Source: Aristolochia californica (Eukaryota > Streptophyta > Magnoliopsida > Piperales > Aristolochiaceae). Taken from it: 64,000 nucleotides of DNA. Below the pieces are notes generated by a model, which had not been told where the DNA came from, searched no databases, and worked only from the letters and a program-made list of their open reading frames with translations. This document shows, piece after piece, positions 1 through 27,599 of the stretch; position 1 is the first letter of the stretch, and every line of letters begins with the position of its first letter. A program made the position numbers and the translations under genes. The DNA lies in NCBI GenBank assembly GCA_029961685.1, contig JARWKL010000015.1, forward strand, positions 9,794,801-9,858,800. Reading direction: 5' to 3'.

Positions 1-3000
1 GAAAAATGAGATTGAAAACTGAAGTTTGGATTTGGAAAAAAACTGAACATCCAAAATGGAAATACACAAATGCAGAGAGAGATAATTCCCCAAAGTATTT
101 ACGATTTTTAAGGATTGTAAACTCTTTTAGTTTTTTATATATTAGGTTTTGCAATCATCTGAAAAGGGGGGGCGAGGCATTTTTAATCGAGTGTTAACTC
201 CCAAACCATAAGTCATTTCTAACAAAAATTATAGCCTTTACACATCATTAATCAATCGAAACATTTACGATGATCTATGATTGTTTGGTCGGCTTTTGTA
301 AATAGGCAAAAAGTCAGTTGTTTGGCTCTGATAAATATCCCATCGCACGTTAACTTGAGAATTTATTTTTTTCTTCTCCTTGAAATTTTTGGATCATTAG
401 GTCATTTGCATTCTTCAACATGTTTAAGGCATGCATATCCATATTTAAAACATGTTATCAATTATAAATCTATTTCTTATAAAATTGCACCAAGCTATTA
501 GGGGTTGTACAAGTAGAGTTTCCAAAAAATGGATAACAAAACTTTGGTGTTCCTTTTTAGTGCGTGAAATAATTTTATTCACTTACATTTACTGTAGTTT
601 TTGATTATTTGCATACATAAACTCTAAAATTTTCATTTTGTTGTAATTTTTTTGTCTTATTTTTTTGTTTACGAGAAAAATGGGAGAGTTAAATTTCAAG
701 TTTGGATTTTAAAAAAAAATTGAACATCCAAAATTGTAATGCACAAATGCTGTGAGAGATAATTTGAAAAAGCATCAGTGATTTTTAAGGATTTAAACTC
801 ATTTAGTTTTATATATATTAAGTTTTGCAATCATTGGAAAAAAGGGTGGGGGGGGGGGGGGAGGCATTTTTGACTGAGTGTTGACTCCCAAACCATAAGT
901 CATTTCTAAAACAATTTGTAGGTGGTACACATCATTAATCGATCAAAACATTTATGATGATCTATGATTGTTAGGTCCACTTTTTGTAAATAGACAAAAA
1001 GTGGGTTGTATGGCTCTGGTAAATATCCCACCCCAAGTTAACTTGAGAATTTAATTTTTTCTACTCCTGTAAATTTTTGGATCATTAGGTCATTTGCATC
1101 TTCAACATGTTTCAGGCATGCATATCCATATTTATAACATGTTAGGACCAATTAGAAATCTCTTTCATATAAAATTCTAGTAAGCTATTAGGGGTCGTAC
1201 TAGTGGAATTTCCAAAAAATGGATAACAAAATTTTGGTGATCATTTTTAGTGTGTGAAATAATTTTTTTCACTTACATTTATTATAGTTTTCAATTTTTT
1301 GCCTACATAGACTCAAAAATTTTCTTTTTGTTATATTCTATTTGCCTTATCTTGTTGTTTACAACAAAAATGGGAGAGTGAAAACGCATCTTAGGATTTG
1401 AAAAAAAATTGAACATCCAAAATGGAAATGCAGAAATTCTTAGAGAGATAATCTCAAAAAGTATCTATGAATTTTAAGGATTTTAAACTCTTTTTTATTA
1501 TATATATTTGGTTTTGCAATCATCGAAAAAGGGGGGGGGGGGGGGGGGATGAGGCATTTTTAACCGAGTGTTGACTCCCAAACCATAAGTCAATTTTAAC
1601 AAAATATTATAGCCGTTACACATCATTAATCGATCAAAACATTTATGATGATCTATTATTATTAGGTTCGTTGTTTGTAAATAATAAAAAAGTGGATTGT
1701 TTGGCACTGGTAAATATCTGACCGCATGTTCACTTGAAAATTTAATTTTTTCCACTCGAAATTTTTTTATTATTAGGTCATTTGCATCTTCAACATGTTT
1801 CAGGCATGCATATCCATATTTAAAACATGTTAGGATAAATTCAAAATCTCTTTCTTATAAAATTCCACCAAGCTATTAGGGATTGTACTAGTGGAGTTCA
1901 CCAAACTTGGATAACAAAACTTTGGTGTTCATTTATAGTGCGTGAGATAATTTTCTTCACTTACATTTGTTATAGTTTTAAATTATTTGCATACATAAAC
2001 TCTAAAATTTTCATTTTTTTGTGATATATTTGCCTTATCTTTTGATTTGCGAGAAATTTGGTGAGAGAAAACTCATGTTTGGATTTGAAAAAAAATTGAA
2101 CATCCAAAATGGAAATGCAAAAATGCTGAGAGTGATAACTCCAAAAAGTATATGTGATTTTTAAGGACTGTAAACTCTTTTAGTTTTTTATATATTAAGT
2201 TTTGTAATCATCGGAAAAAGGGGGGGCGAGGCATTTTTAACTGAGTGTTGACTCCCAATCCTTAAGTAACTTATAACAAAAATTATAGCGGTTACATATC
2301 ATTAATCACTCAAAACATTTAAGATGATCTATGATTGTTAGGTCTGCTTTTTCTAAAGAGGCAAAAAATGAATTGTTCGGCTCTGGTAAATATCCTACCG
2401 CATGTTTACTTGATAATTTAATTTTTTCTACACCTTTAAATTTTTGGATCATTTGGTCATTTGCGTCTTCAACATGTTGCAGTCATGCATATCCATTTTT
2501 AAAACATCTTATCAATTAGAAATCTATTTCTTATAAAATCCCACCAAGCTACTAGGGGTTGTTCAAGTGGAATTTCCCAAACATGGATAACAAAACTTTG
2601 GTGTTCATTTTTAGTGCATGAAATAATTTTATTCACTTACATTTATCATAGTTTTCTATTTTTTTCATATGTAAACTCTACAATTTTTATTTTGTTGTGA
2701 TTTATTTACCTTATCTTTTTGTTTTCGAGAAAAAATGGGAGAATGAAAACTCAAGTTTGGATTTTAAAAAAATTGAACATGCAAAATGGAAATATACAAA
2801 TGCTGAGAGAGAAAATTCCAAAAAGTATTTTGGATTTTTAAGAATTGTAAACTCTTTTAGTTTTTTATATATTAGGTTTAGCAATCATCGGAACAGAGGG
2901 GGGCAAGGTATTTTTAACTGAGTATTGACTCCCAAACCATAAGTCATTTCTAACAAAAATTATAGCCGTTACACATCATTAATCTATCAAAACATTTACG

Positions 3001-3859
3001 ATGATCTATGATTGTTAGGTCCGCTTTTTATAAATAGGCAAAAAGTGGGTAGTTTGGCATTGGTAAATATCCCACCGCACGTTAACTTGAGAATTTAATT
3101 TTTTCTACTCGAAATTTTTGGATCAATAGGTCATTTGCATCTTCAACAAGTTTCAGGCAAGCATATCCATATTTAAAACATGTTAGGATAAATTAGAAAT
3201 TTCTTTCTTATAAAATTCCACCAAGCTATTAGGGGTTGTACTAGTGGAATTACCCAAACATGGATAAGAAAACTTTGGTGTTCATTTATAGTGCGTGACA
3301 TAATTTTATTCACTTACATTTGTTATAGGTTTCAATTTTTTGCATACATAAACTCTAAAATTATCATTTTGTTGTGATCTATTTGCCTTATCTTTTGATT
3401 TACGAAAAAAATGGGAGAGTGAAAACTCTTGTTTGGATTTGAAAAAAAATTGAACATCCAAAATGGAAATGAACAAATACTGAGAGTGATAACTCCAAAA
3501 AGTATCTGTGATTTTTAAGGACTATAAACTCTATTAGTTTTTTATATATTAGGTTTTACAATCATCGGAAAAGGGGGAGGGGGGGAGGGTGGCATTTTTA
3601 ACTTAGTGTTGACTCCCAAACCATAAGTCATTTCTAACAAAAATTATAGCGGTTACACATCATTATTCAATCAAAACATTCAAGATGATCTGTGATTGTT
3701 AAGTCCACTTTTTGTAAATAGGCAAAAAGCAAATTGTTTGGCTCTGGTAATTATCCCAATGCACATTAACTTGAAAATTTAATTTTTTCTGCTCGAAATT
3801 TTTGGATCATTTGGTCATTTGCATCTTCGCCATGTTGTAGTCACGCATATCCATTTTTA
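1..3859 (+). repeat. Satellite array, divergent monomers, direct orientation
   Basis: Tandem copies of the roughly 680-bp AT-rich monomer. The clearest landmark is the G-tract, preceded by a segment like AATCATCGGAAAAG and followed by CGAGGCATTTTTAACTGAG. Tracts begin near 166, 844, 1531, 2220, 2898 and 3573, giving spacings of 675-689 bp. Each monomer also holds a CTTTTTG/CAAAAAG dyad, a TCCCAAACCATAAGTC segment, a GCATGCAT-containing segment and a GGAATTTCCCAAACATGG segment. Copies differ from each other by many scattered substitutions and small indels, so this stretch is old relative to the block at 7253-12557. No gene is supported. Short open frames here recur at the same monomer position and carry no recognisable domain. 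Confidence 0.97.
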
Positions 3860-5288
3860 AAACATGTTAGGATCAATTAGAAATCCCTTTCTTATAAAAT
3901 TCCACCAAGCTATTAGGGGTTGTACTAGTGGAATTTCCCAAACATCGATAACAAATCTTTGGTGTTCATTTTTAGTTCGTGAAATAAGTTTTTTCACTTA
4001 GATTTAATATAGTTTTCAATTTTTTGCTTACATAAACTCTAAAATTTTTCATTTTGTTGTGATCTATTTGCCTTATCTTTTTGTTTACGAGAAAAATGGG
4101 AGTGTGACAACTCAAGTTTGGATTTGAAAAACAATTGAACATCCAAAATGGAAAAGCACAAATACTGAGAGAGATAATTCCAAAAAGTATCGTTGATTTT
4201 TAAGGATTGTAAACACTTCTTGTTTTTTATATATTAAGTTTTTCAATCATAGGAAAAGGGGGGGGGGGGGGGGGGGGGGGGGGTAGGCATTTTTAACTGA
4301 GTGTTGACTGTTCAAACAAAAATCATAGCGGTTACACATCATTAATCAATCAAAACATTTATGATGATCTATGATTTTTAGGTCCGCTTTGTGTCAATAA
4401 GCAAACAGTGGGTTGTTTGGCTCATGTAAATATCCCACCCTAGGTTAATTTGAAAATTTAATTTTTTTCTAGTCGAAATTTTTGGATCATTAGGTCATTT
4501 GCATCTTCAACAAGTTTCAAGCATAGATATCCATTTTTAAAACATGTTAGGATCAATTAGAAATCACTTTCTTATAAAATTCCACCAAGCTATTAGGGGT
4601 TGTACTAGTGGAATTTCCCAAACATCGATAACAAATCTTCGGTGTTCATTTTTAGTGCATGAAATAATTTTTTTCACTTACATTTAATATAGTTTTCAAT
4701 TTTTTGCTTACATAAACTCTAAAATTATTTTTCATTTTGTTGTGATCTATTTGCCTTATCTTTTTGTTTACGAGAAAAATGGGAGTGTGAAAACTCAAGT
4801 TTGGATTTGAAAAACAATTGAACATCCAAAATGGAAAAGCACAAAGAGAGATAATTCCAAAAAGTATCGTTGATTTTTAAGGATTGTAAACACTTCTTGT
4901 TTTTTATATATTAAGTTTTTCAATCATAGGCAAAGGGGGGGGGGGGGGGGGGGGGGGGGGGGCGGGCATTTTTAACTGAGTGTTGACTCTTCTAACAAAA
5001 ATCATAGCGGTTACACATCATTAATCAATCAAAACATTTATGATGATCTATGATTTTTAGGTCCGCTTTGTGTTAATAAGCAAACAGTGGGTTGTTTGGC
5101 TCATGTAAATATCCCACCCCAGGTTAATTTGAAAATTTAATTTTTTTCTAGTCGAAATTTTTGGATCATTAGGTCATTTGCATCTTCAACAAGTTTCAAG
5201 CATAGATATCCATTTTTAAAACATGTTAGGTTCAATTAGAAATCTCTTTCTTATAAAATTCCACCAAGCTATTAGGGGTTGTACTAGT
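3860..5288 (+). repeat. Local near-duplicate monomer pair
   Basis: Two adjacent monomers are much more alike than their neighbours. Shared private variants include AACATCGATAACAAATCTT at 3941 and 4621, AAACACTTCTTG before the G-tract, a shortened GAGTGTTGACT segment lacking the usual CCCAAACCATAAGTC, and CTTTGTGT in place of CTTTTTGT. G-tracts lie at 4258-4283 (26 G) and 4935-4962 (28 G), 677 bp apart. The second copy has a small deletion (GCACAAAGAGAG instead of GCACAAATACTGAGAGAG). The pair ends abruptly near 5289, where the sequence jumps from GTACTAGT to a segment of the monomer just upstream of the next G-tract. This indicates an unequal exchange or deletion. Confidence 0.85.
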
Positions 5289-7252
5289 CAAATTTCTTAT
5301 AAACTCTTTTAGTTTTTTATATATTAGGTCTGATAATCATCATAAAAGCGAGAGAGGAGGGGGGGGGGGGGGGGGGGGGGGGGGGAACGAGGCATTTTTA
5401 ATTGAGTGTTGACTCCCAAACCATAAGTCATTTCTGTGAAAAATTATAGTTGTTACACATCATTAATCAATCAAAACATTTTCGATGATCTATGATTGTG
5501 AAGTCTGCTTTTTGTAAATAGGCAAAAAGTGGGTTGTTTGGCTCAGGTAAATATCCTACCGCACGTAAACTTGAGAATTTAATTTTTTCTACTCTTTGGA
5601 ATTTTGGGATAGTTAGGTCATTTGCATCTTCAATTATTTTCAGGCATGCTTATCCATTTTTAAAACATGTTAGGATCAATTAGAAATCTCTTTCTTATAA
5701 AATTCCACCAAGCGATTAGGGGTTGTACTAGTGGAATTTCCAAAACATGGATAACAAAACTTTGGTGTTCTTTTTTAGTGCGTCAAATAATTTTTCTCTC
5801 TAAAATTTATTCTAGTTTTCATTTTTTGCATACATAAACTCTAAAATTTTCATTTTGTTGTAATCTTTTTGCCTAATCTTTTTGTTTACGAGAAAGATGG
5901 GAGAGAGAAAACTCAAGTTTGGATTTGAAAAAAAGTTGAACATCCAAAATGGAAATGCACAAATGAAGAGAGAGATCATTCAAAAAAGTATCTGTAATTG
6001 TTAAGGATTGTAAAATCTTTTAGTTTTTTATATATTATATTTTGCAATCATCGAAAAAAGGGGGGCGAGGCATTTACGATGATCTATGATTGTTAGGTCC
6101 GCTTTTTGAAAATAAGCAAAAAGAGGATTATTTGGCTCTAGTAAATATCCCACCGCACACGTTAACTTGAATATTTAATTTTTTCTACTCCTTGAAATTT
6201 TGGGATCATTAGGTTATTTGCATCTTTAATAAGTTTCAGGCCTTCTAATCTATTTTTAAAACATGTTAGGATCAATTAGAAATCTCTTAATTATAAAATT
6301 TCACATAGCTATTAGGGGTATTACTAGTGGAATTCCCCAAATATAGATAACAAAACTTTGGTGGTCATTTTTAGTGCATGAGATAATTTTCTTCACTTAC
6401 ATTTGTTTTAGTTTTCAAATTTTTTCATACATAAACTCTAAAATTTTCATTTTGGTGTGATCTATTTGCCTTGTCTTTTTGTTTACGAGAAAAATGGGAG
6501 AGTGAAAACTCCAGTTTGGATTTGAAAAAAAATTGAACATCCAAAATGAAAATGGACAAATGCTGAGAGAGATAATTCCAAAAAGTATATGTGATTTTTT
6601 ACGATTTTAAACTCTTTTAGTTTTTTATATATTAGGTTATGCAATCATCAAAATAGGGGGGGCGACGCATTTTTAACTAAGTGTCGACTCCCAAACCATA
6701 AGTCATTTCTAAAAAATATTGTTGGCTTTACACATCATTAATCGATCAAAACATCTACAATGATCTATGATTGTTTGGTCTACTTTTTGTAAATAGGCAA
6801 AAAGTGGGTTGTTTGGCTCTGGTAAATATCCCACTGCAAGTTAACTTGAGAATTTAATTTTTCCTCTCCTTGAAATTTGTGGATCATTAGGTCATTTGCA
6901 ACTTCAACATGTTTCAGGCATGCATATCCATATTTAAAACATGTTAGGATCAATTAGAAATCTCTTCCTTATTAAATTCCACCAAGCTATTAGGGGTAGT
7001 ACAAGTGGAATTTGCCAAACATGGAAAACAAAACTGATTTAATTTTTAGTGCGTGAAATAATTTTCTTCACTTAATTTTATTATAGTTTTCAATTTTTTG
7101 CATACATAAACTATAAAATTTTCATTTTGTTGTGATTTATTTGCCTTATGTTTTTGTTTACGAGAAAAAAGGGAGAGTGAAAACTCAAGTTTGGTTTTGA
7201 AAAAAAATCGAACAACCAAAATGGAGATGCACAAATACAGAGAAAGATAATT
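5289..7252 (+). repeat. Satellite array, rearranged monomers, direct orientation
   Basis: Monomers with G-tracts at 5359-5385, 6060-6065 and 6656-6662. The first monomer is truncated at 5289. The second has a deletion immediately after its G-tract: GGGGGCGAGGCATTT at 6061 passes directly into ACGATGATC, which normally lies more than 100 bp downstream. The join lies at a shared CATTT. The last part, 7216-7252, supplies the intact 37-bp segment that is missing at every internal junction of the following block. No gene is supported. Confidence 0.95.
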
Positions 7253-7334
7253 CCAAAAAGTATCTGTAATTTTTTAGGATTGTACACATTTGTAGTTTTT
7301 TATATATAAGGTTTTGTAATCATCGGAAAAGGGA

Positions 7335-7370
7335 GGGGGGGGGGGGGGGGGGGGGGGGCGGGGGTGGGGG
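7335..7370 (+). other. G-quadruplex-type motif, unit 1 (same site in units 2-8)
   Basis: In every amplified unit the G-tract is organised as GGG, A, a run of 11-24 G, C, GGGGG, T, GGGGG: at least four G-runs separated by single bases. That fits the usual definition of an intramolecular quadruplex with one-base loops. Ordinary monomers usually have a single run of 5-8 G followed by CGAGG, so the extra C-GGGGG-T-GGGGG part is a private feature of this unit. Folding is inferred from the motif and not shown. Confidence 0.75.
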
Positions 7371-7485
7371 TTGCGTTTTAAAATGAGTATTGACTCCAAA
7401 ACCATAAGTCATTTATAAAAAAACTTATAGCGGTTACATATCATTAATAAGTCAAAACATTTACGATGATCTATGATTTTTAGGT

Positions 7486-7513
7486 CCACTTTTTGTAAAT
7501 AGGCAAAAAGTGG
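7486..7513. repeat. Conserved 10-bp dyad (hairpin) of the monomer, representative copy
   Basis: CCACTTTTTG and CAAAAAGTGG form a perfect 10-bp inverted repeat around the 8-base loop TAAATAGG. The same element is present in nearly every monomer of the window. Many have CCGC instead of CCAC in the left arm, which leaves one G-T type mismatch but keeps the inner 6-bp stem. It is also the insertion site of all three LTR copies in the window (46729/46730, 53505/53506, 57209/57210). Its function is unknown. Confidence 0.85.
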
Positions 7514-7922
7514 TTTGTTTGGCTCCGGTAAATATCCCATCGCACGTCAACCTGAGAATTTAATTTTTTCTACTTCTTGAAATTATTGGATCAATAGGCC
7601 ATTTGCATCTTCAACATTTTTAAGGCATCTCTATCCATATTTAAAACATGTTATCAATTAGAAATCTCTTTCTTATAAAATTCCACCAAGCTATTAGGGG
7701 TTTTACTAGTGGAATTTCCCAAACATGGATAACAAAAATTTGATGTTCATTTTTGGTGCGTGAAATAATTTTCTTTACTTACATTTATTATAGTTTTCAA
7801 TTTTTTGCATGCATAAACTTCAAAATTTTCACTTTTGTTATGATCTATTTGCCTTGTCTTTTTGTTTACGAGAAAAATGGGAGAGTGAAAACGTGTGGTT
7901 GGATTTTAAAAAAAATGAACAT

Positions 7923-8587
7923 CCAAAAAGTATCTGTAATTTTTAGGATTGTACACATTTGTAGTTTTTTATATATAAGGTTTTGTAATCATCGGAAAAG
8001 GGAGGGGGGGGGGGGGGGGGGGGCGGGGGTGGGGGTTGCGTTTTAAAATGAGTATTGACTCCAAAACCATAAGTCATTTATAAAAAAACTTATAGCGGTT
8101 ACATATCATTAATAAGTCAAAACATTTACGATGATCTATGATTTTTAGGTCCACTTTTTGTAAATAGGCAAAAAGTGGTTTGTTTGGCTCCGGTAAATAT
8201 CCCATCGCACGTCAACCTGAGAATTTAATTTTTTCTACTTCTTGAAATTATTGGATCAATAGGCCATTTGCATCTTCAACATTTTTAAGGCATCTCTATC
8301 CATATTTAAAACATGTTATCAATTAGAAATCTCTTTCTTATAAAATTCCACCAAGCTATTAGGGGTTTTACTAGTGGAATTTCCCAAACATGGATAACAA
8401 AAATTTGATGTTCATTTTTGGTGCGTGAAATAATTTTCTTTACTTACATTTATTATAGTTTTCAATTTTTTGCATGCATAAACTTCAAAATTTTCACTTT
8501 TGTTATGATCTATTTGCCTTGTCTTTTTGTTTACGAGAAAAATGGGAGAGTGAAAACGTGTGGTTGGATTTTAAAAAAAATGAACAT
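7923..8587 (+). repeat. Amplified unit 2 (665 bp)
   Basis: G-run 8004-8023 (20 G). This is the only unit with five rather than six T in the GTAATTTTT run just after the junction, the single non-G-tract difference I noticed in the block. That missing T puts the end of the open frame beginning at 7753 in a different phase, so it runs on through the G-tract for 97 residues. This is a good illustration that these frames are not under coding constraint. Confidence 0.95.
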
Positions 8588-9244
8588 CCAAAAAGTATCT
8601 GTAATTTTTTAGGATTGTACACATTTGTAGTTTTTTATATATAAGGTTTTGTAATCATCGGAAAAGGGAGGGGGGGGGGGCGGGGGTGGGGGTTGCGTTT
8701 TAAAATGAGTATTGACTCCAAAACCATAAGTCATTTATAAAAAAACTTATAGCGGTTACATATCATTAATAAGTCAAAACATTTACGATGATCTATGATT
8801 TTTAGGTCCACTTTTTGTAAATAGGCAAAAAGTGGTTTGTTTGGCTCCGGTAAATATCCCATCGCACGTCAACCTGAGAATTTAATTTTTTCTACTTCTT
8901 GAAATTATTGGATCAATAGGCCATTTGCATCTTCAACATTTTTAAGGCATCTCTATCCATATTTAAAACATGTTATCAATTAGAAATCTCTTTCTTATAA
9001 AATTCCACCAAGCTATTAGGGGTTTTACTAGTGGAATTTCCCAAACATGGATAACAAAAATTTGATGTTCATTTTTGGTGCGTGAAATAATTTTCTTTAC
9101 TTACATTTATTATAGTTTTCAATTTTTTGCATGCATAAACTTCAAAATTTTCACTTTTGTTATGATCTATTTGCCTTGTCTTTTTGTTTACGAGAAAAAT
9201 GGGAGAGTGAAAACGTGTGGTTGGATTTTAAAAAAAATGAACAT
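8588..9244 (+). repeat. Amplified unit 3 (657 bp)
   Basis: G-run 8670-8680 (11 G), one of the two shortest. Otherwise the same as units 1, 2 and 4-8 by eye. With unit 6 it defines the minimum unit length of 657 bp. Confidence 0.95.
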
Positions 9245-9912
9245 CCAAAAAGTATCTGTAATTTTTTAGGATTGTACACATTTGTAGTTTTTTATATATA
9301 AGGTTTTGTAATCATCGGAAAAGGGAGGGGGGGGGGGGGGGGGGGTGGCGGGGGTGGGGGTTGCGTTTTAAAATGAGTATTGACTCCAAAACCATAAGTC
9401 ATTTATAAAAAAACTTATAGCGGTTACATATCATTAATAAGTCAAAACATTTACGATGATCTATGATTTTTAGGTCCACTTTTTGTAAATAGGCAAAAAG
9501 TGGTTTGTTTGGCTCCGGTAAATATCCCATCGCACGTCAACCTGAGAATTTAATTTTTTCTACTTCTTGAAATTATTGGATCAATAGGCCATTTGCATCT
9601 TCAACATTTTTAAGGCATCTCTATCCATATTTAAAACATGTTATCAATTAGAAATCTCTTTCTTATAAAATTCCACCAAGCTATTAGGGGTTTTACTAGT
9701 GGAATTTCCCAAACATGGATAACAAAAATTTGATGTTCATTTTTGGTGCGTGAAATAATTTTCTTTACTTACATTTATTATAGTTTTCAATTTTTTGCAT
9801 GCATAAACTTCAAAATTTTCACTTTTGTTATGATCTATTTGCCTTGTCTTTTTGTTTACGAGAAAAATGGGAGAGTGAAAACGTGTGGTTGGATTTTAAA
9901 AAAAATGAACAT
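9245..9912 (+). repeat. Amplified unit 4 (668 bp)
   Basis: G-run 9327-9345 (19 G) followed by TGGC, a T interruption not present in the other units. The 11 extra bases relative to unit 3 are all in this tract. Confidence 0.95.
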
Positions 9913-10575
9913 CCAAAAAGTATCTGTAATTTTTTAGGATTGTACACATTTGTAGTTTTTTATATATAAGGTTTTGTAATCATCGGAAAAGGGAGGGGGG
10001 GGGGGGGGGGGCGGGGGTGGGGGTTGCGTTTTAAAATGAGTATTGACTCCAAAACCATAAGTCATTTATAAAAAAACTTATAGCGGTTACATATCATTAA
10101 TAAGTCAAAACATTTACGATGATCTATGATTTTTAGGTCCACTTTTTGTAAATAGGCAAAAAGTGGTTTGTTTGGCTCCGGTAAATATCCCATCGCACGT
10201 CAACCTGAGAATTTAATTTTTTCTACTTCTTGAAATTATTGGATCAATAGGCCATTTGCATCTTCAACATTTTTAAGGCATCTCTATCCATATTTAAAAC
10301 ATGTTATCAATTAGAAATCTCTTTCTTATAAAATTCCACCAAGCTATTAGGGGTTTTACTAGTGGAATTTCCCAAACATGGATAACAAAAATTTGATGTT
10401 CATTTTTGGTGCGTGAAATAATTTTCTTTACTTACATTTATTATAGTTTTCAATTTTTTGCATGCATAAACTTCAAAATTTTCACTTTTGTTATGATCTA
10501 TTTGCCTTGTCTTTTTGTTTACGAGAAAAATGGGAGAGTGAAAACGTGTGGTTGGATTTTAAAAAAAATGAACAT
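9913..10575 (+). repeat. Amplified unit 5 (663 bp)
   Basis: G-run 9995-10011 (17 G), the same tract length as unit 8. The rest is indistinguishable from its neighbours by eye. Confidence 0.95.
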
Positions 10576-11232
10576 CCAAAAAGTATCTGTAATTTTTTAG
10601 GATTGTACACATTTGTAGTTTTTTATATATAAGGTTTTGTAATCATCGGAAAAGGGAGGGGGGGGGGGCGGGGGTGGGGGTTGCGTTTTAAAATGAGTAT
10701 TGACTCCAAAACCATAAGTCATTTATAAAAAAACTTATAGCGGTTACATATCATTAATAAGTCAAAACATTTACGATGATCTATGATTTTTAGGTCCACT
10801 TTTTGTAAATAGGCAAAAAGTGGTTTGTTTGGCTCCGGTAAATATCCCATCGCACGTCAACCTGAGAATTTAATTTTTTCTACTTCTTGAAATTATTGGA
10901 TCAATAGGCCATTTGCATCTTCAACATTTTTAAGGCATCTCTATCCATATTTAAAACATGTTATCAATTAGAAATCTCTTTCTTATAAAATTCCACCAAG
11001 CTATTAGGGGTTTTACTAGTGGAATTTCCCAAACATGGATAACAAAAATTTGATGTTCATTTTTGGTGCGTGAAATAATTTTCTTTACTTACATTTATTA
11101 TAGTTTTCAATTTTTTGCATGCATAAACTTCAAAATTTTCACTTTTGTTATGATCTATTTGCCTTGTCTTTTTGTTTACGAGAAAAATGGGAGAGTGAAA
11201 ACGTGTGGTTGGATTTTAAAAAAAATGAACAT
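10576..11232 (+). repeat. Amplified unit 6 (657 bp)
   Basis: G-run 10658-10668 (11 G), the same as unit 3. Two 11-G units separated by longer ones could reflect independent contraction or amplification in blocks of three (units 3-5 and 6-8). Confidence 0.95.
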
Positions 11233-11894
11233 CCAAAAAGTATCTGTAATTTTTTAGGATTGTACACATTTGTAGTTTTTTATATATAAGGTTTTGTAAT
11301 CATCGGAAAAGGGAGGGGGGGGGGGGGGGGCGGGGGTGGGGGTTGCGTTTTAAAATGAGTATTGACTCCAAAACCATAAGTCATTTATAAAAAAACTTAT
11401 AGCGGTTACATATCATTAATAAGTCAAAACATTTACGATGATCTATGATTTTTAGGTCCACTTTTTGTAAATAGGCAAAAAGTGGTTTGTTTGGCTCCGG
11501 TAAATATCCCATCGCACGTCAACCTGAGAATTTAATTTTTTCTACTTCTTGAAATTATTGGATCAATAGGCCATTTGCATCTTCAACATTTTTAAGGCAT
11601 CTCTATCCATATTTAAAACATGTTATCAATTAGAAATCTCTTTCTTATAAAATTCCACCAAGCTATTAGGGGTTTTACTAGTGGAATTTCCCAAACATGG
11701 ATAACAAAAATTTGATGTTCATTTTTGGTGCGTGAAATAATTTTCTTTACTTACATTTATTATAGTTTTCAATTTTTTGCATGCATAAACTTCAAAATTT
11801 TCACTTTTGTTATGATCTATTTGCCTTGTCTTTTTGTTTACGAGAAAAATGGGAGAGTGAAAACGTGTGGTTGGATTTTAAAAAAAATGAACAT
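11233..11894 (+). repeat. Amplified unit 7 (662 bp)
   Basis: G-run 11315-11330 (16 G). No other difference noticed. Confidence 0.95.
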
Positions 11895-12557
11895 CCAAAA
11901 AGTATCTGTAATTTTTTAGGATTGTACACATTTGTAGTTTTTTATATATAAGGTTTTGTAATCATCGGAAAAGGGAGGGGGGGGGGGGGGGGGCGGGGGT
12001 GGGGGTTGCGTTTTAAAATGAGTATTGACTCCAAAACCATAAGTCATTTATAAAAAAACTTATAGCGGTTACATATCATTAATAAGTCAAAACATTTACG
12101 ATGATCTATGATTTTTAGGTCCACTTTTTGTAAATAGGCAAAAAGTGGTTTGTTTGGCTCCGGTAAATATCCCATCGCACGTCAACCTGAGAATTTAATT
12201 TTTTCTACTTCTTGAAATTATTGGATCAATAGGCCATTTGCATCTTCAACATTTTTAAGGCATCTCTATCCATATTTAAAACATGTTATCAATTAGAAAT
12301 CTCTTTCTTATAAAATTCCACCAAGCTATTAGGGGTTTTACTAGTGGAATTTCCCAAACATGGATAACAAAAATTTGATGTTCATTTTTGGTGCGTGAAA
12401 TAATTTTCTTTACTTACATTTATTATAGTTTTCAATTTTTTGCATGCATAAACTTCAAAATTTTCACTTTTGTTATGATCTATTTGCCTTGTCTTTTTGT
12501 TTACGAGAAAAATGGGAGAGTGAAAACGTGTGGTTGGATTTTAAAAAAAATGAACAT
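11895..12557 (+). repeat. Amplified unit 8 (663 bp), right edge of block
   Basis: G-run 11977-11993 (17 G). Its right end at the CCAAAA motif (12558) continues into TGGAAAAGCACAAATTTTGAGAG, i.e. into an ordinary monomer with the 37-bp segment intact, so the block ends in register. Confidence 0.95.
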
Positions 12558-13949
12558 CCAAAATGGAAAAGCACAAATTTTGAGAGAGATAATCCCAAAA
12601 AGTATATGTGATTTTTTAGGTTTGTAAACTCTTTTAGTTTTTTACATATTAGGTTTTACAATCATCGGAAAAGGGGGGGAGAGGCATTTTTAACTGAGTG
12701 TTGACTCCCAAACCATAAGTCCTTTCTAATAAAATTTTTAGGTGTTACACATCTTTAATCGATCAAAGCATTTATGATGATCTATAATTGTTAGGTCGGC
12801 TTTTTGTAAATAGGAAAAAATTCTGTTGTTTGGCTCTCGTAAATATCCCACCGCACGTTAACTTGAGAATTTAATTTTTTCTACTCATTGAAATTATTCG
12901 ATCATTAGGTCATTTGCATCTTCAAGATGTTTAAGGCATGCATATCAATATTTTAAACGTGTTATCAATTAGAAATCTCTTTCTTATAAAATTCCACCAA
13001 GCTATTAACGGTTGTACTAGTGGAATTTCCCAAACATGGATAATAATACTTTGGTGTTTATTTTTAGTGCATGAAATAATTTTCTTCACTTACATTTATT
13101 ATAGTTTTCAATTTTTTGCATAAAGAAACTTTTCATATTTCATTTTGTTGTAATCTATTTGCCTTTTATTTTTGTTTACGAGAAAAATGAGAGAGTGAAT
13201 GCTGAGAGAGATAATCCCAAAAAGTATATGTGATTTTAAGGATTGTAAAATATTTTAGTTTTTTATATATTAGGTTTTACAATCATTGGAAAAGGGGGGA
13301 GAGGCATTTTTAACTGAGTGTTGACTCCCAAACCATAAGTCATTTCTAATAAAAATTGTAGGTGTTACACGTCATTAATCGATCAAAACATTTATGATGA
13401 TCTATGATTGTTAGGTCGGGTTTTTGTTAATAGGGAAAAAGTTGGTTGTTGAGCTCTTGTAAATATCCCACCACATGTTAACTTGAGAATTTAATTTTTT
13501 CTACTCCTTGAAATTATTGGTTCATTAGGTCATTTGCATCTTCAAGATGTTTACGACATGCATATCAATATTTTAAACATGTTATCAATCAGAAATCTCT
13601 TAATTATAAAATTCCACCAAGCTATTAGGGTTTGTACGAGTGGAATTCCCCAAACATGGATAACAAAACTTTGGTTTCCATTTTTAGTGCGTGAGATAAT
13701 TTTCTTTACTTACATTTGTTATAGTTTTCAATTTTTTTCAAACATTAACTCTAAAATTTTCATTTTGGAATATTCTATTTACCTTATCTTTTTGTTTTCG
13801 AGAAAAATGAGTGAGTAAAAACTCAAGTTTGGATTTTAAAAAAAATTGAACATCCAAAATGGCAATGCACAACTGCTGAGAGAGATAATTCCAAAAAGTA
13901 TATGTGATTTCTATGGACTGTAAACTCATCTAATTTTTTATATTTAGTG
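12558..13949 (+). repeat. Satellite array, direct, with internal deletions
   Basis: Two monomers with short G-tracts at 12673-12679 and 13294-13299. Around 13197 a deletion joins GAGAGTGA directly to ATGCTGAGAGAG, removing about 65 bp of the usual sequence. Around 13943 the monomer is truncated: TTTTTTATATTTAGTGGAATTTCCC skips the G-tract and several hundred bases. No gene is supported. Confidence 0.93.
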
Positions 13950-16900
13950 GAATTTCCCAAACATGGATAACTAAACTTATGTCTTCGTTTTTAGTGCATG
14001 AAATAATTTTCTTCACATACCTTTATTATAGTTTTAATTTTTTTATACTAAACAACTAAAATTTTCATTTGATCTATTTGCCTTATCTTTTTGTTCACGA
14101 GAAAAATGGGTGAATGATAACTCATGTTTGGATTTGAAAAATAATTGAACATCGAAAATAGAAATGCACAAATTCTGAGAGAGATAATTCCAACAAGTAT
14201 CTATGATTTTTAAGGATTGTAAACTCTTTTCATTTTTAATATATTAGGTTTTGCAAACAACGGAAAAGGGGGGGCGAGGCATTTTTTACTGAGTGTCGAC
14301 ACCCAAACCATATGTGATTTCTAACAAAAATTATAGCCGTTACCCATCATTAATCGATCAAAGCATTTACGATGATCTATGATTATTAGGGCTGCTATTT
14401 GTAAATAGGCAAAAAGTGGGTTGTTTGGCTCTTGTAAATATCCCACCACACGTTAACCTGAAAATTTAATTTTTTCTTCTAGAAATTTTTGGTTCATGTG
14501 GTCATTTTCATCTTCAACATGTTTCAGACATGCATCTCCACATTTAAAACATGTTAGGATCAATTAGAAATCTCTTTCTTATAAAATTCCACCAAGGTAA
14601 TAGGTGTTGTACTTGTGGAATTTCCCAAACATACATAACAAAACTTTGGTGTTCATTTTTAGTGAGTGAAATAATTTTATTCACTAACATTAATTATATT
14701 TTTCAATTTTTTGCATATATAAACTCTAAAATTTTCATTTTGTTGTGATTTATTTGCCTCATCTTTTTGTTGACAAGAAAAATGGGTGAGTGAAAACTCA
14801 AGTTTTGTTTTGAAAAAAAATTGAACATCCAAAATTGAAATGCACAAATGCTGAGAAAGATAATCCCAAAAAGTATCTGTGATTTTTAAGGATTTTAAAC
14901 TCTTTTGTTTTTTTATATATAAGGTTTTGCAATCATCGGAAAAGGGGGGTGGGGGGGGGGAGGCTTTTTTAACTGAGTGTTGACTCCAAACCATAAGCCA
15001 TTTCTAACAAAAAATAGCTATTACGATGATCTATGATAGTTAGGACCACTTTTTGTAAATAGGCAAAAAGTGGGTTGTTTGGCTCTGTTAAATATCCCAC
15101 CGCACGTTAACTTGAGAATTTAATTTTTTCTACTCCATGAAATTTTTAGATCATTAGGTCATTTGCAACTTCAACATGTTTTAGGCATGCATATTCATAT
15201 TTAAAACATGTTATGACCAATTAGAAATCTCATTCTTATAAAATTCCACCAAGTTATTAGAAGTGGTATTAGTGGAATTTCCCAAACATGGATAACTAAA
15301 CTTTGGTGTTCATTTTTAGTGCCTGAAATAATTTTCTTCATGTACATTTTTTATAGTTTTCAATTTTTTGCATACATAAACTCTAAATTTTTTATTTTGT
15401 TGAGATCTATTGGCCTTATCTTTTTGGTTACGAGAAAAATGGGAGAGTGAAAACTCAAGTTTGGATTTGAAAAAAAATTGAACATCCAAAATTGAAATGC
15501 ACAAATGCTGAGAGAGATAATTCCAACAAGTATCTGTGATTTTTAAGGATTGTAAACTCTTTTCATTTTTTATTTATTTGGTTTTGCAATCATCGAAAAA
15601 GGGGGCTCGAGGCATTTTTAACTAAGTGCTGACTCCCAAACCATAAGGCATTTCTAACAAAAATTATTGCTATTACACATCATTAATCGATCAAAAAATT
15701 TACGATGATCTATGATGGTTAGGTCCGCTTATTGTAAATAGGCAAAAAGTGGGTTGTTTGGCTCTGGTAAATACCCCACCGCACTTTAACTTGAAAATTT
15801 AATTTTTTCTTCTCCTTGAAACTTTTGGTTTATTAGGTCATTTGCATCTTCAACATGTTTTAGACATGGATATCCATATTTAAAACATGTTAGGATCACT
15901 TAGAAATCTCTTTTTTATAAAATTCCACCAAGCTAATAGGGGTTGTACTAGTGGAATTTCCCAAACATGGATTACAAAACTTTCGTGTTCCTTTTTAGTG
16001 TGTGAAATAATTTTCTTCACTAACATTTATTATAGTTTTCAATTTTTTGCATACATAAACTCTAAAATTTTAATTCTTTGGTGATCTATTTGCCTTATAT
16101 TTTTGTTTACCAGAAAAATGGGTGAGTGATAACCCAAGTTTAGATTTGAAAAAAAAATTAACATCCAAAATGGAAACGCACAAAGCTGAGAGAGATATTT
16201 CCAAAACGTGTTTGTGATTTTTAAGGATTCTAAACTCTTTCAGTTTTTTTTTATGTTATGTTTTGAGATCATTGGAAAAGAGGGGGAGGGGTGGAGGCAT
16301 TTATAACTGAGTGTTGACTCCCAAACCATAAGTCATTTCTAAAAAAAATTATAGCTGTTACACATCATTAGTTGATCAAAACATTTATGTTGAACAACGA
16401 TTGTTAGGTCCGCTTTTTGTAAATAGGCAGAAAATGGGGTGTTTAGCTCTGGTAAATATCCCACCGCATGTTAACTTGAGAATTTAATTTTTTCTACTCG
16501 AAATTTTTTGATCATTAGGTCATTTACATCTTCAACAGGTTTCAGGAATGCTTATCCATATTTAAAACATGTTAGGATCAAATAGAAATCTCTTTCTTAT
16601 AATATTCCAATAAGCTATTAGGGGTTGTACTAGTGAACTTTCCCAAATATGGATAACAAAACTTTGGTGTTCATTTTTAGTGCATTAAAAATTTTTCTTC
16701 ACTTACATTTATTATAGTTTTTAATTTGTTGCATTCATAAACTCTAAATTTTTTGTTTTGTTGCGATCTATTTGCCTTATCTTTTTTTTTACAAGAAAAA
16801 TGGGAGAGTGAAAACTCAAGTTTGGATATGAAAGAAAATTGAACATCTAAAATTGAAATGCACAAAAGCTGAAAGAGATAATTCCAAGAAGTATCTGTGA

Positions 16901-16965
16901 TTTTTAAGGATGGTAAACTCTTTTATTTTTTTATATATTAGGTTTTGCAATCATCGAAAAAGGGT
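13950..16965 (+). repeat. Higher-order module, copy A (four monomer types)
   Basis: Ordered set of monomers with private variants. Type a has GTTCACGAG, AAAATAGAAATGC and GCAAACAACGG near 13950-14270. Type b has AGTGAGTGAAATAAT, GTTGACAAGAAAAATGGGTGAGTG and the G-tract at 14944. Type c has AAATTGAAATGC, CCAACAAG, GGGGGCTCGAGG at 15601 and GATGGTTAGGTCCGCTTATTG. Type d has TGTGTGAAATAAT, GGGTGAGTGATAACCC and GAGATCATTGGAAAAGAGGGGG near 16265. The same series recurs in shortened form from about 17640 and 27600. The segment ends where a monomer is broken at its G-tract (16966). Confidence 0.75.
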
Positions 16966-17639
16966 TGAATTTCCCAAACACGGATAACAAAACTTTGGTG
17001 TTCATTTTTAGTGCGTGAAATAATTTTCTTCACTTAAATTTATTATTTTTTTCAATTTTTTACATACTTAAACTCTAAAATTTTCATTTTGTGTTGATCT
17101 ATTTGCCTTATCTTTTTGTTTACGAGAAAAATGGGATAGTGGAATCTCAAGTTTGGATTTGAAAAACAATTGAACATCCAAAATGGAAATGCACAAATTC
17201 TGAGAGAGATAATTCTAAAAAATATCTATGATTTTTAAGGATTGTAAACTCTTTTGCTTATTTAAATATTAGGTTTTGCAATCATCAAAAAGGGGGGGTG
17301 AGGCTTTTTTAACTTCGTGTTGATTTCAAAACAATATGTCATTTCTAACAAAAATTATAGCCGTTACACATCATTAATCGATCAAAACATTTACGATGAT
17401 CAATGATTGTAAGGTCCGCTTTTGGTAAATAGGCAAAAAATGGGTGGTTTGGCTCTAGTAAATATCCCACCACACGTTAACTTGAGAATTTAATTTTTTC
17501 TACTCGAAATTTTTGGATGATTAGGTCATTTGCATCTTCAACATGTTTCAGGCATGCTTATCCATATTTAAAACATGTTAGGATCAATCCGAAATCTCTT
17601 TCTTATAAAATTCCACCAAGCTCTGCGGGGTGGTATTAG
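16966..17639 (+). repeat. Satellite monomer following a G-tract break
   Basis: At 16966 the sequence CATCGAAAAAGGG passes directly into TTGAATTTCCCAAACACGG, skipping about 300 bp of monomer, so the break lies inside the G-tract. The following monomer has the private variants TGTGTTGATC, GGGATAGTGGAATC, CTTTTGGTAAATAGG and TTGGATGATTAGG. These reappear at about 25860-26384, showing that this monomer type was copied about 8.9 kb downstream. Confidence 0.85.
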
Positions 17640-19352
17640 TGGAATTTCCCCAACATGGATAAATAAACTTTTGTGTTCATTTTTTAGTGCAAGAAATAAT
17701 TTTCTTCACTTACCTTTATTATAGTTTTTAATTTTTTCCATTCATAAACTCTAAAATTTTCATTTTGTTATGATCTATTTGCCTTATCTTTTTGTTCACG
17801 AGAAAAAGATGAGAATGAAAACTCATGTTTGGATTTGAAAAAAAATTGAACATCCAAAATAGAAATGCACAAATGCTGAGAGAGATCATTCCAACAAGTA
17901 TCTATGATTTTTAAGGATTGTAAACTTTTTCTGTTTTTAATATATTAGGTTTTGCAAACATCGGAAAAGGTGGGGGGGAGGGGGGGGGAGGCGTTTATAA
18001 CTGAGTGTTGACACCCAACCCAGAAGTCATTTCTAAAAAAAATTATAGCCATTAGACATCATTAATCGATCAAAACATTTACGATGATCTATGATTATTA
18101 GGTCCCCTTTTTGTAAATAGGCAAAAAGTGGTCTGTTTGGCTCTGTAAATATCCTGCCGCACGTTAACTTGAGAATTTAACTTTTCTTATAAAATTTTTT
18201 GGTTCATTAGGTGATTTTCATCTTCAACATGTTTCAGACATGCATCTCCATGTTTAAAACATGTTACGATCAGTTAGAAATCTTTCTTATAAAATTCCAC
18301 CAAGCTAGTAGGTGTTGAACAAGTGGAATTTCTCAAACTTAGATAACAAAACCTTGGTGTTCATTTTTAGTGAGTGAAATAATTTTCTTCACTAACATTT
18401 ATTATAGTTTTCAATTTTTTGCATATATAAACTCTAAAATTTTCATTTTGTTGTGATCTATTTGCCTCATCCTTTTTTTTACAAGGAAAATGGGTGAGTG
18501 AAAACTCAAGTTTGGATTTGAAAAAAAATTGAACATCCAAAATTGAAATGTGCAAATGCTGAGAGAGATAATTCCAACAAGTATCTGTGATTTTTAAGGA
18601 TTGCAAACTCTTTTCGTTTTTTATATATTAGGTTTTGCAGTCATCGACAAAGGGAGCGCGAGGCATTTTTAAGTAAGTGTTGACTCCCAAACCATAAGTC
18701 ATTTCTAAAAAAAATTATAGCCGTTACTCATCATTATTCGATCAAAACATTTACGATGATCCATGATGGTTAGGTCCACTTATTGTAAATAGGCAAAAAG
18801 TGGGTTGTTTGGCTCTAGTAAATACCCCACCGCACGTTAACTTGAGAATTTAATTTTTTTCTTCTCCTTTAAATTTTTGGTTTATTAGGTCATTTGCATC
18901 TTCAACATGTTTCAAAAATGGATATCCATATTTAAAACATGATAGGATCAGTTAGAAATCTCTTTTTTATAAAATTCCACCAAGCTAATAGGGTTTGTAC
19001 TAGTGGAATTTCCCAAACATGAATTACAAAACTTTGGTGTTCATTTTTAGTGTGTGAAATAATTTTCTTCACTAACATTTATTATAGTTATCAATTTTTT
19101 GCATACATAAACTCTAAAATTTTAATTTTTTTTTTGTGTTCTATTTGCCTTATCTTTACAAGAAAAAAGGGTGAGTGATAACTCAAGTTTGGATTTGAAA
19201 AAAAATTGCACATCCAAAATGGAATTGCACAAATGCTGAGAGAGATATTTTCAAAAAGAATCTGTGATTTTAAGGATTGTAAACTCTTTCTGTTTTTTAC
19301 ATATTACATTTTGAAATCTTCGGAAAAGAAGGGGGGGGGGGGGGGGGGGGGG
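17640..19352 (+). repeat. Higher-order module, copy B (three monomer types)
   Basis: Same series as copy A but one monomer shorter. Type a is at 17640-17990 (GTTCACGAG, AAAATAGAAATGC, CCAACAAG, GCAAACATCGG). It is followed by a hybrid whose first half is type b (AGTGAGTGAAATAAT, ACAAGGAAAATGGGTGAGTG) and whose second half is type c (AAATTGAAATG, CCAACAAG, AGGGAGCGCGAGG at 18650, GATGGTTAGGTCCACTTATTG). Type d follows at about 19040-19352. The switch from b to c lies near the AAATTGAAATG segment at about 18540, as expected for an unequal exchange in register. Confidence 0.72.
19331..19352 (+). repeat. Long G-tract (22 G)
   Basis: Expanded G-tract in a type d monomer. The related copies at about 16282 and 28634 have GAGGGGGAGGGG-type interrupted tracts instead, so tract expansion postdates the duplication of the module. 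Confidence 0.95.
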
Positions 19353-22300
19353 TGGTGCGGGAAGCATTTTTTAGTAAGTGTTGACTCCCAAACCAGAAGT
19401 CATTTCTAAAATAAATTATATCCGTTACACATCATTAATTGATCAAAACATTTACGTTGATCTACGATTGTTAGGTCCGGTTTTTGTTAATAGGCTGAAA
19501 ATGGAGTGTTTGGCTCTGGTAAATATCCTACCGCACTTTAACTTGAGAATTTAATTTTTTCTACTTCATGAAATTTTTGGATCATTAGGTCATTTGCGTC
19601 TTCAATATGTTTGAGGAATGCTTATCCATATTTAAAACATGTCAGGATCAATTAGAAATCTCTTTCTTCTAAATTTCCACCAAGCTATTAGGGTTTGTAC
19701 TAGTGGAAATTCCCAAACATGGATAACAAAATTTTGGTGTTCATTTTTAGTGCGTGAAATAATTTTCTTCACTTACATTTGTTATAGTATTAAATTTTTT
19801 GCATACGTAAACTCTTAAATTTTCATTTTCTTGTGATCTATTTGCAATATCTTTTTGTTTACGAGAAAAAAAGGGTGAATGAAAACTCAAGTTTGGATTT
19901 GAAAAAAATTGAACATCCAAAATGGAAATGCACAATTGCTAAGAGAGATAATTCTAAAAAATATTTGTGATTTTTAAGGATTTTAAACTCTTTTAATTTT
20001 TTATATATTAGGTTTTACAATCATCTGAAACTGGGGGGGGGGGGGGGGGAGGGGGAAGTATTTTCAACTATGTGTTGACTCCCAAACCATAACTCATTTC
20101 TAAAAAACATTATAGCTGTTACACATCATTAATGGATCAAAAAATTTATGATGATCTATGACTGTTAGGTCGGCATTTTTTAAATAGGAAAAAAGTGGGT
20201 TGTTTGGGCCTGGTAAATATCCCACCGCACTTTAACTTTAGAATTTAATTGTTTCTACTTCTTGAAATTTTTGGATCATTAGTTTATTTGCATCTTCAAC
20301 ACGTTTAAGACATGTGTATCCATATTTAAAACATGTTTGGATTAACTAGAAATCTGTTTCTTATAAAATTCCGCCAAGCTATTAGGGGTTGTACTAGTGG
20401 AATTTCACAAACATGGATAACAAAACTTTGGTGTTCATTTTTAGTGAGTGAAATAATTTTCTTCACTTACATTTATTATATTTTTCAATTTTTTGAACAC
20501 ATAAACTCTAAATTTTTCATTTTGTTGTGATCTATTTTAGTATCTTTTCGTTTACGAGAAAAATGGGAAAGTGAAAAAAATTGAACATCCAAAACGGAAA
20601 TGCACAAATGCCGAGAGAGATAATTCCAAAAACTACCTGTGCTTTTTAAGGATTTTAAAATCTTTTTGTTTTTTATATATTAGGTTTCACATTCAACGAA
20701 AAAGGAGGGGCGAAGCATTTTTAACAGAGGGTTGACTCCCAAACCATAAGTCATTTTGAACAAAAATTATAGCCGTTACGCATCATTAATCGATCAAAAC
20801 ATTTAAGATGATCTATGATTGTTAGGTCCGCTTATTGTAAATAGGAAAAAACTCAGTTGTTTGGATCTGGTAAATATCCACCGCACGTTAACTTGAGAAT
20901 TTAATTTTTTATACTCCTTGAAATTTTTTAATCATTAAGTCATTTGCATCTTCAACATGTTTCAGGCATGCATGTCCATATTTAAAACATGTTAGGATCA
21001 ATTAGAAATATCTTTCCTATAAAATTCCACCAAGCTATTAGGGGTTGTACTAGTGGAGTTTCCAAAACATGGATAAGAAAACTTTGGTTTTCGTTTTTTG
21101 TGCGAGAAATAATTTTCTTCACATTCAGTTGTTATTTTTTTTAATATTTTTCACATATAAACTCTAAAATTTTCATTTTGTTGTGATCCATTTGCCTTAT
21201 CTTTTCGTTTACGAGAAAAATGAGAGAGTGAAAACTCATGTTTGGATTTGAAAACAATTTGAACATCTAAAATGGAAATGCACAAATGCAAGAGAGATAA
21301 TTCCAAAAAGTGTATGTGATTTTTATGGAATGTAAACTCTTTTAGTTTTTTATATATTAGCTTTTGCAATCATCGAAAAAGGGGGGGCGAGGCATTATTA
21401 ATTGTGTGTTAACAACCAAACCATAAGTCATTTCTAACAAAAATTATTGCCGTTACACATCATTAATCGATCAAAATATTTACGATTATCTATGATTGTT
21501 AAGTCCACTTATTGTAAATAGGCAAAAACTGGTTTGTTTGGATCAAGTACATATCGCACTGCACGTTAACTTGAGAATTTAATTTTTTCTACTCGAAATT
21601 TTTTTTATCATTAAGTCATTTGCATCTTCAACATACTTCAGGCATGCATATCATATTTAAAAGATGTTAGGATCAATTAGAAATCTCTTTCTTATAAAAT
21701 TCCACCTAAATATTAGGGGTTGTACAAGTGGAATTTAGATAACATGAATAAGAAAACTTTCGTGTTCATTTTTAGTGCGTGAAATAATTTTCTTCACTTG
21801 CATTTATAATAGTTTTTAATTTTTTGCATACATAAACTCTAAAATTTTCATTTTTTTGTGATATATTTGCCTTATCTTTTTGTTTACGAGAAAAATGGGA
21901 GAGTGAAAACTCAAGTTTGGATTTGAAAACAAATTGATCATCCAAAATGGAAAGGCACAAATGCTGAGAGAGATAATTCCAAAAAGTATCTGTGATTTTT
22001 AAGGATTGTAAACTCTTTTAGGTTTTTATATATTAGGTTTTGCCATCATCGGAAAAGGGGGGGCGAGGCATTTTTAACTGAGTGTTGACTCCCAAACCAT
22101 AAGTCATTTCTAACAAACATTATAGCCGTTACACATCATTAATCGTTCAAAACATTTATGATGATCTACGATTGTTAGGTCCACTTTTTGTACATAGGCA
22201 AAAATTGGGTTGCTTAGCTGTTGTAAATATCCCACTGCACGTTAACTTGAGAATTTATCTTTTTCTACGCCTTGAAATTTTTGGATCATGAGGTCATTTG

Positions 22301-25300: not shown

Positions 25301-25400
25301 TGGAAATTTACAAATGTTGAGAGAGATAATTCCAAAAAGTATTTGTGATTTTTAAGGATTGTAAACTCTTTTGGTTATTTAGATATTAGGCTTTAAAATC
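19353..25400 (+). repeat. Satellite array, regular direct monomers
   Basis: A fairly regular run of monomers with G-tracts near 20033, 20704, 21381, 22057, 22734, 23411, 24079 and 24757, spaced 671-678 bp apart. This is the best region in the window for deriving a consensus. At 24757-24767 the G-tract region is collapsed: CATAAAAGGGGTTTTGCAAACCATAAG lacks the usual CGAGGCATTTTTAACTGAGTG segment. No gene is supported. Confidence 0.96.
22305..22349. repeat. Cluster of three short palindromes in the monomer, representative copy
   Basis: In most monomers two copies of the 8-bp palindrome AACATGTT lie about 33 bp apart with the palindrome GCATGC (within GCATGCAT) between them. The centre contains the CATGCA core known as the RY motif, bound by plant B3-domain proteins. 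The cluster is visible in both orientations of the array (for example also 45183-45230 inverted). The amplified units at 7253-12557 have lost the first AACATGTT and the GCATGC. Protein binding is inference. Confidence 0.65.
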
Positions 25401-25408
25401 ATCAAAAG

Positions 25409-25479
25409 AAGAGGAGGAGAGGAGGGTGGGGCGGGGGGGGCGGGGGGGGGGGGGGGGTGTGGGAGAGGGAGGGTGGAGG
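25409..25479 (+). repeat. Complex G-rich tract
   Basis: A 70-bp purine-rich stretch (GAAGAGGAGGAGAGGAGGG, then G-runs broken by T, C and A) at the G-tract position of one monomer. It is the most degenerate and longest interrupted tract on the direct strand. The mixture of GA and G-runs suggests repeated slippage with substitutions, and it also contains four or more G-runs with short loops. Confidence 0.9.
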
Positions 25480-27430: not shown

Positions 27431-27599
27431 AGTAAATATCCCACCGCACGTTAACTTGAGAACTTAATTTTTTCTACTCCTTGAAATTTTTGGATCATTA
27501 GGTCATTTGCATCTTAAATATGTTTCAGGCATGCATATTCATATTTAAAACATGTTAGGATCAATTAGAAGTCTCTTTCTTATAAAATTTTACCAAGCT

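Follow-up and report, generated by a model that had tools for sequence, protein, structure and literature searches.

How does a new round of satellite growth start inside an old array, and can its founding event still be read from the sequence? The question is raised by a block of eight near-identical repeat units in a 64,000-bp stretch of the Aristolochia californica genome (GenBank assembly GCA_029961685.1, contig JARWKL010000015.1, positions 9,794,801 to 9,858,800), which we refer to as the window (G000:C57:9794801-9858800) and which was compared with the whole genome of 659.6 Mb in 521 contigs. Such beginnings are as a rule reconstructed from arrays that are already complete. At this locus, a single assembly lets us compare a single-copy counterpart, the 7-bp join that founded the block and the product of eight copies, and a segmental duplication serves as the clock. 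It is very likely, in our judgement, that one monomer was amplified in place and that the amplification was founded at a pair of TCCAAAA words; the probabilities of the alternatives weighed below partly overlap with that of this reading.

The amplified block and its joins

The window is a satellite array interrupted by one long terminal repeat (LTR) element and two solo LTRs. The consensus of the standard monomer is 679 bp long and consists, in the frame used, of a 640-bp core and a 39-bp spacer. Mean pairwise identity is 86.4% among the 60 full-length monomers of the window that lie outside the block. The satellite was without a match in searches of phages, viral contigs and bacterial and archaeal genome contigs, and Rfam gave no match at gathering thresholds. 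A literature search returned nothing on a 679-bp satellite repeat, and nothing on local monomer duplication in Arabidopsis. The block, its edges and its joins are as follows.

7252..12563, plus strand: amplified block of eight units, including the TCCAAAA at either end (zero substitutions, 100-mer copy number)
7222..7258, plus strand: left-edge 37-bp spacer, intact; differs from the paralog at 7237, and also at 7215 just before it
7252..7258, plus strand: left TCCAAAA, end of the left spacer, consensus position 671 (edge comparison)
7335..7370, plus strand: poly-G tract of unit 1, one instance of the tract that is variable across units (unit comparison)
7922..7928, plus strand: internal join 1, units 1/2 (this and the next six from join search and unit alignment)
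8587..8593, plus strand: internal join 2, units 2/3
9244..9250, plus strand: internal join 3, units 3/4
9912..9918, plus strand: internal join 4, units 4/5
10575..10581, plus strand: internal join 5, units 5/6
11232..11238, plus strand: internal join 6, units 6/7
11894..11900, plus strand: internal join 7, units 7/8
12557..12563, plus strand: right TCCAAAA, end of the last unit, consensus position 634 (edge comparison)
12564..12600, plus strand: right-edge 37-bp spacer, intact; paralog identical across the 55 bp compared

The eight units are arranged head to tail with periods of 670, 665, 657, 668, 663, 657, 662 and 663 bp. Outside the poly-G tract, their 641 bp are letter-identical in seven of the eight, unit 2 being short by one T of a T6 run, and no substitution was observed among the eight units over 5071 non-tract sites. 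The first G-runs of units 1 to 8 measure 24, 20, 11, 19 (followed by TGG), 17, 11, 16 and 17 bases; a T interrupts the tract in unit 4, and CGGGGGTGGGGG follows in all units. Units that lie three apart have similar tract lengths (permutation p 0.012 at lag 3 and 0.044 over lags 1-4; 0.009 and 0.040 when the unit-4 run is taken as 19 rather than 22), a weak pattern that hints at stepwise growth.

Compared with the 60 other full-length monomers of the window, a block unit is 82.8-87.5% identical. In the genome search, for which 40 of 14,145 first-look candidates were scored to give 97 matches, those of at least 600 bp outside the local region and the paralog described below reached an identity of at most 83% among the matches listed. 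Exact 100-base words, scanned over 241 kb around the block, reached a maximum of nine copies, of which the block holds eight and the paralog one, and all others had at most six. The repeated unit is one monomer minus its spacer, and a multi-monomer higher-order unit was not seen in the block. Several identical adjacent copies are thereby set apart from the surrounding monomers, as is characteristic of local satellite expansion.

TCCAAAA occurs twice in the consensus monomer, at positions 634 and 671, 37 bp apart, and a third, internal copy is also present in the units. The left edge of the block reads GATAATTCCAAAAAGTATC and the right edge GAACATCCAAAATGG, while all seven internal joins are identical, read GAACATCCAAAAAGTATC and cross the 7-bp word without the 37 bp. 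In the edge units, identity to the other units begins and stops exactly at TCCAAAA. This is the word common to the outer edges and the seven joins, and no longer match exists between the two ends; at least 7 bp are shared by 0.15% of random position pairs in the consensus. Between the two edge spacers, 7 of the 37 positions differ. Edges and joins are laid out as in a tandem duplication bounded by two 7-bp words, with the 37-bp spacer lying outside the copied stretch.

The pair of words is common in the array, but not universal, since both were exact in 21 of the 69 spacers found in the window with at most six substitutions (the first word in 51, the second in 31). When the 20-base join was searched with up to three mismatches, ten sites were found in the window against 0.02 expected by chance: the seven joins, all exact, and three sites with three mismatches each. 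Two of these three continue into the spacer, and the third (28567) is crossed by the consensus path without a jump. Along the consensus path, 49 of 50 spacers are full length and one is of 33 bp; as this count accepts gaps of 31-49 bp only, spacer losses were judged from the pattern searches instead.

Much of this had been anticipated in an earlier note on this DNA, made from its letters alone. The eight consecutive near-identical units that it placed at 7253-12557 were recovered at 7252-12563, the surrounding array proved as old and diverged as it had been described, and the 37 bp are indeed kept at both edges of the block. Its account of a join at CCAAAA held as regards the identical joins lacking 37 bp, but there are seven of them rather than eight, and the shared word is the 7-bp TCCAAAA.

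The genome contains 25 copies of the exact junction word GAACATCCAAAAAGTAT, seven of them in the block and 18 elsewhere, and 43,295 copies of its intact counterpart GAACATCCAAAATGGA. The nearest two of the 18 outside occurrences are 8.4 kb apart, and among the 19 places that carry the exact word, only the block holds several copies close together. Ten of the 18, among 13 loci, were inspected. Around these ten joins, identity to a block unit is 82.7-88.5% over at least 314 bp, apart from a 51-bp stretch at L035 with 92.2%; they therefore look independent, and the local origin of the block is not undermined. The flanking spacers lie roughly two monomers less one spacer apart at L034, L036, L037, L039, L040 and L043 and at irregular distances at L038, L042 and L044, and at L035 the right-side spacer is absent within 1.5 kb. 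A looser search with 27 bases and up to three mismatches gave 290 matches; of the roughly 100 listed, many resemble ordinary ends of spacers. Spacer loss at TCCAAAA is hence a rare, recurrent event and not a unique one. The earlier note had held that a diverged copy of the junction common elsewhere in the genome would speak against its reading; this objection applies in a weak form, in that the exact junction word recurs at 18 other places, which is rare against the 43,295 intact words.

In six of the inspected arrays (L034, L036, L037, L039, L042 and L043) the spacers are mostly 458-502 bp apart, which indicates that the monomer is shorter. Consensus matches start there near position 200-227, and the part with the G-tract thus seems to be missing.

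The single-unit paralog and the order of events

The genome search revealed that the same locus recurs 111 kb downstream of the block. This paralog (G000:C57:9917737-9918416) contains one unit, with both 37-bp spacers intact. Positions 1-7928 of the window align with 9910465-9918416 at about 98.7-98.8% identity, and 11894-19936 with 9917737-9925800 at 99.1%, position 9925800 being the end of the sequence compared in the detailed alignment. Three substitutions and a difference in tract length separate the paralog unit from units 1 and 3. When its two TCCAAAA words are joined in silico, the resulting 45-base junction is exactly the one observed in six of the seven joins, and the seventh departs from it only by the missing T of unit 2, downstream of the join. 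A single-copy locus with the same edges as the block, the counterpart expected for microhomology-mediated tandem duplication, is therefore present in the assembly. Contrary to what the earlier note had supposed, the founder need not have lost 37 bp: the single unit has both spacers and its two words predict the junction. The broader proposal of that note, namely that one founder was recently amplified on site by way of a microhomology join, is strengthened by the single-monomer paralog.

Block and paralog lie in the two copies of a head-to-tail segmental duplication, which comprises six aligned segments with 378 mismatches in 79,224 columns (0.48%), counting segments of at least 97% identity and at least 500 bp only. 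Its position in the window is the following.

1..43447, plus strand: right part of copy 1 of the segmental duplication, containing the block (alignment to copy 2)
43447..43448, no strand: junction of copy 1 and copy 2, to within a few bases; the orientation of the array changes here (alignments)

The orientation flip itself was found at 43445/43446. As expected if copy 2 starts at 43448, the sequence beyond that point recurs at 9723158-9725408 with 99% identity (2253-base query), which gives a copy 1 of about 115.1 kb (9723158-9838247) and a copy 2 of about 111.0 kb (9838248-9949295). Copy 1 would accordingly begin on its left at 9723158; the stretch 9725409-9744800 falls outside the comparison.

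The differences between units and paralog bear on the order of events, and one of them is the following.

7389, plus strand: A in all eight units; the paralog and the consensus of the 60 other monomers have G (unit/paralog comparison)

As this A is common to all units, the founder mutation probably preceded the multiplication. At 7807 the change sits in the paralog (the consensus has G), and the third difference lies within the tract and is not polarisable. Were the units of the same age as the segmental duplication, a star tree would predict 12.1 substitutions (10.9-13.3) among them, where none was seen (P about 6e-6). The 95% upper bound on the depth of the block, relative to that of the segmental duplication, is 0.25 for eight lineages, 0.50 for four and 0.99 for two. 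On the best reading of these data the amplification postdates the duplication of about 115 kb, and the one unit of the paralog would represent the earlier state and not a collapse. Substitution rates in the range of 6.5e-9 to 1.3e-8 per site per year place the bound for eight lineages at about 91,000-46,000 years, to an order of magnitude only.

Origin of the block and alternative explanations

A mechanism has to account for one unit in the paralog, eight in the block, exact edges and identical joins, all of which are observed. We propose that two copies of TCCAAAA, one ending the left spacer and the other ending the core of the same monomer, became joined, either by microhomology-mediated end joining or by template switching between sister chromatids. 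The stretch between the words would in this way have been tandemly duplicated, leaving the 37-bp spacers outside at both edges; it is this structure that we see, and the pathway that we suggest. Two perfect copies of about 660 bp, on average 15% off the other monomers, would then have exchanged almost only with each other, through unequal sister exchange or break-induced replication, with the observed eight units as the result. By unequal sister exchange, two units could have become eight in perhaps three further steps, or four events in total. The changes in poly-G length and the indel of one T, which are plain from the units, would have come afterwards.

Several points weigh against this reading. 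The paralog would have the same structure if it had collapsed from eight units to one, and it is possible that an in-register duplication, followed by a 37-bp deletion of the middle spacer, gave the same product. The dating assumes eight independent lineages, and with two old lineages there is no separation from the segmental duplication; given the bound of 0.99 for two lineages, substitutions alone cannot date a block of few old lineages, and for that case the argument is carried by the shared base at 7389 together with the single-unit paralog. Poly-G lengths point to a smaller age gap than the substitutions do and do not suggest extreme youth, the pairwise mean square being 44 in the block and 103 between the duplication copies (17 tracts, two of which are block units). 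We give little weight to ages from poly-G, because tract calls are error-prone. Finally, microhomology as a general rule was not seen across 31 irregular joins of the window, hand-picked from the consensus path with the seven joins of the block counted once. At least 3 bp of microhomology was present in five of these and 7 bp in one, the block join, and the mean was about 0 (-0.33 without the block join) against 0.8 for random pairs, in a test blurred by the old age of joins and by the consensus serving as a proxy. The sample excluded G-tract joins with inserted G, LTR edges, the orientation flip, joins recurring in a duplicate and several small jumps. The ends of these joins showed no clear excess near the G-tract either (consensus 60-85; 4 of 62 against 2.4 expected).

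Among the alternatives, the two-step origin just mentioned partly overlaps with our explanation, of which it is a variant: in-register unequal exchange would yield two monomers and a spacer, the 37 bp would be deleted at TCCAAAA, and expansion would follow. That spacer loss at a direct repeat recurs is evident from the spacer-less junction word at 18 scattered loci, and an in-register homologous duplication (of about 3.7 kb, described below) is also present in the window. However, this route needs two events before expansion where one is enough, and the scattered losses are rare (18 against 43,295). We regard it as unlikely, though deserving of consideration. The excised circle suggested in the earlier note found no positive evidence. 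A circle of about 660 bp, released through the CCAAAA join and copied by rolling-circle replication, would have returned to the array as a concatemer. Copying in one step would account for the zero substitutions between units, and a survey of ten plant species detected circles derived from every satellite that it examined (PMC2543021). Insertion of a circle into another monomer would however leave unit 1 or unit 8 chimeric or cost one edge spacer, and in the block the two end units are complete and neither spacer is missing. Moreover, the circles of that survey come in sizes that are multiples of the monomer or of higher-order units and are attributed to long homology (PMC2543021), unlike a 7-bp join that drops 37 bp. 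We consider a circle origin quite improbable, and a circle reinserted into a different monomer is ruled out, there being no chimeric end unit. A circle may have acted at the home locus, where it is not needed for the explanation.

It might also be supposed that the block is old and was once large in both duplication copies, the paralog having collapsed to one unit and the window copy having been re-homogenised by gene conversion. Perfect tandem units are prone to collapse, and zero substitutions are also compatible with recent homogenisation. Two extra processes would nonetheless be required, the probably derived A at 7389 is found in all eight units and not in the paralog, and no substitution has survived even in the edge units; this history appears very improbable. 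An assembly artefact, whether a false number of units or two haplotypes placed in tandem as an apparent segmental duplication, is a concern because identical repeats with poly-G are hard to assemble and 0.48% divergence is also plausible as heterozygosity. Against it, the 241 kb examined around the block contains no N and units carry private marks (T5 in unit 2, the T in the tract of unit 4, the tract lengths). In addition, a 546-bp duplication is found in both copies and the block in one only. Were the copies haplotypes, the contrast of eight against one would persist as alleles. We therefore hold an artefact to be improbable. Eight independent 37-bp deletions are ruled out, since the units are otherwise identical.

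Amplification in place from a TCCAAAA pair resembles processes described elsewhere. At maize centromere 10, an adjacent duplication of 22.7 kb has the same five nucleotides at its outer edges and its junction, for which alternative end joining is proposed (PMC4806543). As in maize, a short word (five nucleotides in maize, 7 bp in the block) marks both edges and the junction in a repeat-rich region; unlike the two 22.7-kb copies of maize, one monomer has become eight here, and a single-unit counterpart is kept. The models of satellite expansion by unequal exchange and break-induced replication, as outlined in a review (PMC8997354), likewise begin with a tandem duplication using little homology and continue with out-of-register exchange among perfect copies. 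The review concerns centromeric arrays and higher-order units, whereas the block, centromeric or not, offers the founding join and the single-copy state in one assembly. Plant satellite circles, attributed in the survey to long homology and found at whole-monomer or higher-order sizes, would also yield identical head-to-tail copies of a monomer-sized unit; they differ from the present case in the 7-bp join, in the unit falling 37 bp short of a monomer and in the block lying exactly at its home locus (PMC2543021). The process is thus of a known kind, and the unusual part is the preserved single-copy counterpart, by which we make no claim regarding earlier reports.

The locus provides a clean test case for end joining and unequal exchange as opposed to circle-based models, and it allows poly-G instability to be measured among otherwise identical copies. 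More speculatively, monomers with both 7-bp words might be ready substrates for spacer-less tandem duplication, and such events might seed spacer-less subfamilies. The block could then be a new array at its first amplification step, with the predecessor state 111 kb away, a view that we put forward as doubtful but conceivable.

Other features in and near the window

The in-register tandem duplication of about 3.7 kb extends from 50181 to about 57580, with 15 mismatches in 3669 aligned bases, and its edges lie within a stretch of homology and not at a short word. Two solo LTRs (53507-53843 and 57211-57548), which resemble the LTRs of the full element and occupy the same monomer position, are both inside this duplication, so that there was probably one before it arose. 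The full element at 46731-49467 has no stop-to-stop frame longer than 121 amino acids and carries GCCTA on both flanks. The alignment of its two LTRs has 344 identities, 30 mismatches and 11 gaps, and about four copies of a 58-bp repeat lie at 48445-48670. After its first LTR stands TGGTATCAGA, which we take to be a typical plant primer-binding site. The flanks of the solo LTRs and the full element are 88-92% identical, a level that does not decide for or against a common insertion.

At 30748-31841 there is a tandem duplication of 546 bp with 3 mismatches in 548 and an overlap of 2 bp at the join; being present in both copies of the segmental duplication, it is older than the latter. On the plus strand the array bears G-runs of at least 9 and up to 42 bases (e.g. 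40698-40739). The median difference in their length from one duplication copy to the other is 9 bases (17 pairs), and they are either highly unstable or poorly called.

Exact 100-base words at G000:C57:9892290-9900591 and 9914473-9915143 have uneven copy numbers between the two duplication copies: one set occurs twice in copy 1 and four times in copy 2, and another once against twice, 670 bp apart in copy 2. These words may reflect further local gains or conversions since the segmental duplication. Upstream of the window, copy 1 includes about 9.4 kb (G000:C57:9784190-9793616), consisting largely of self-repeats at 82-91%, that copy 2 lacks; the join shows a short G-rich match.

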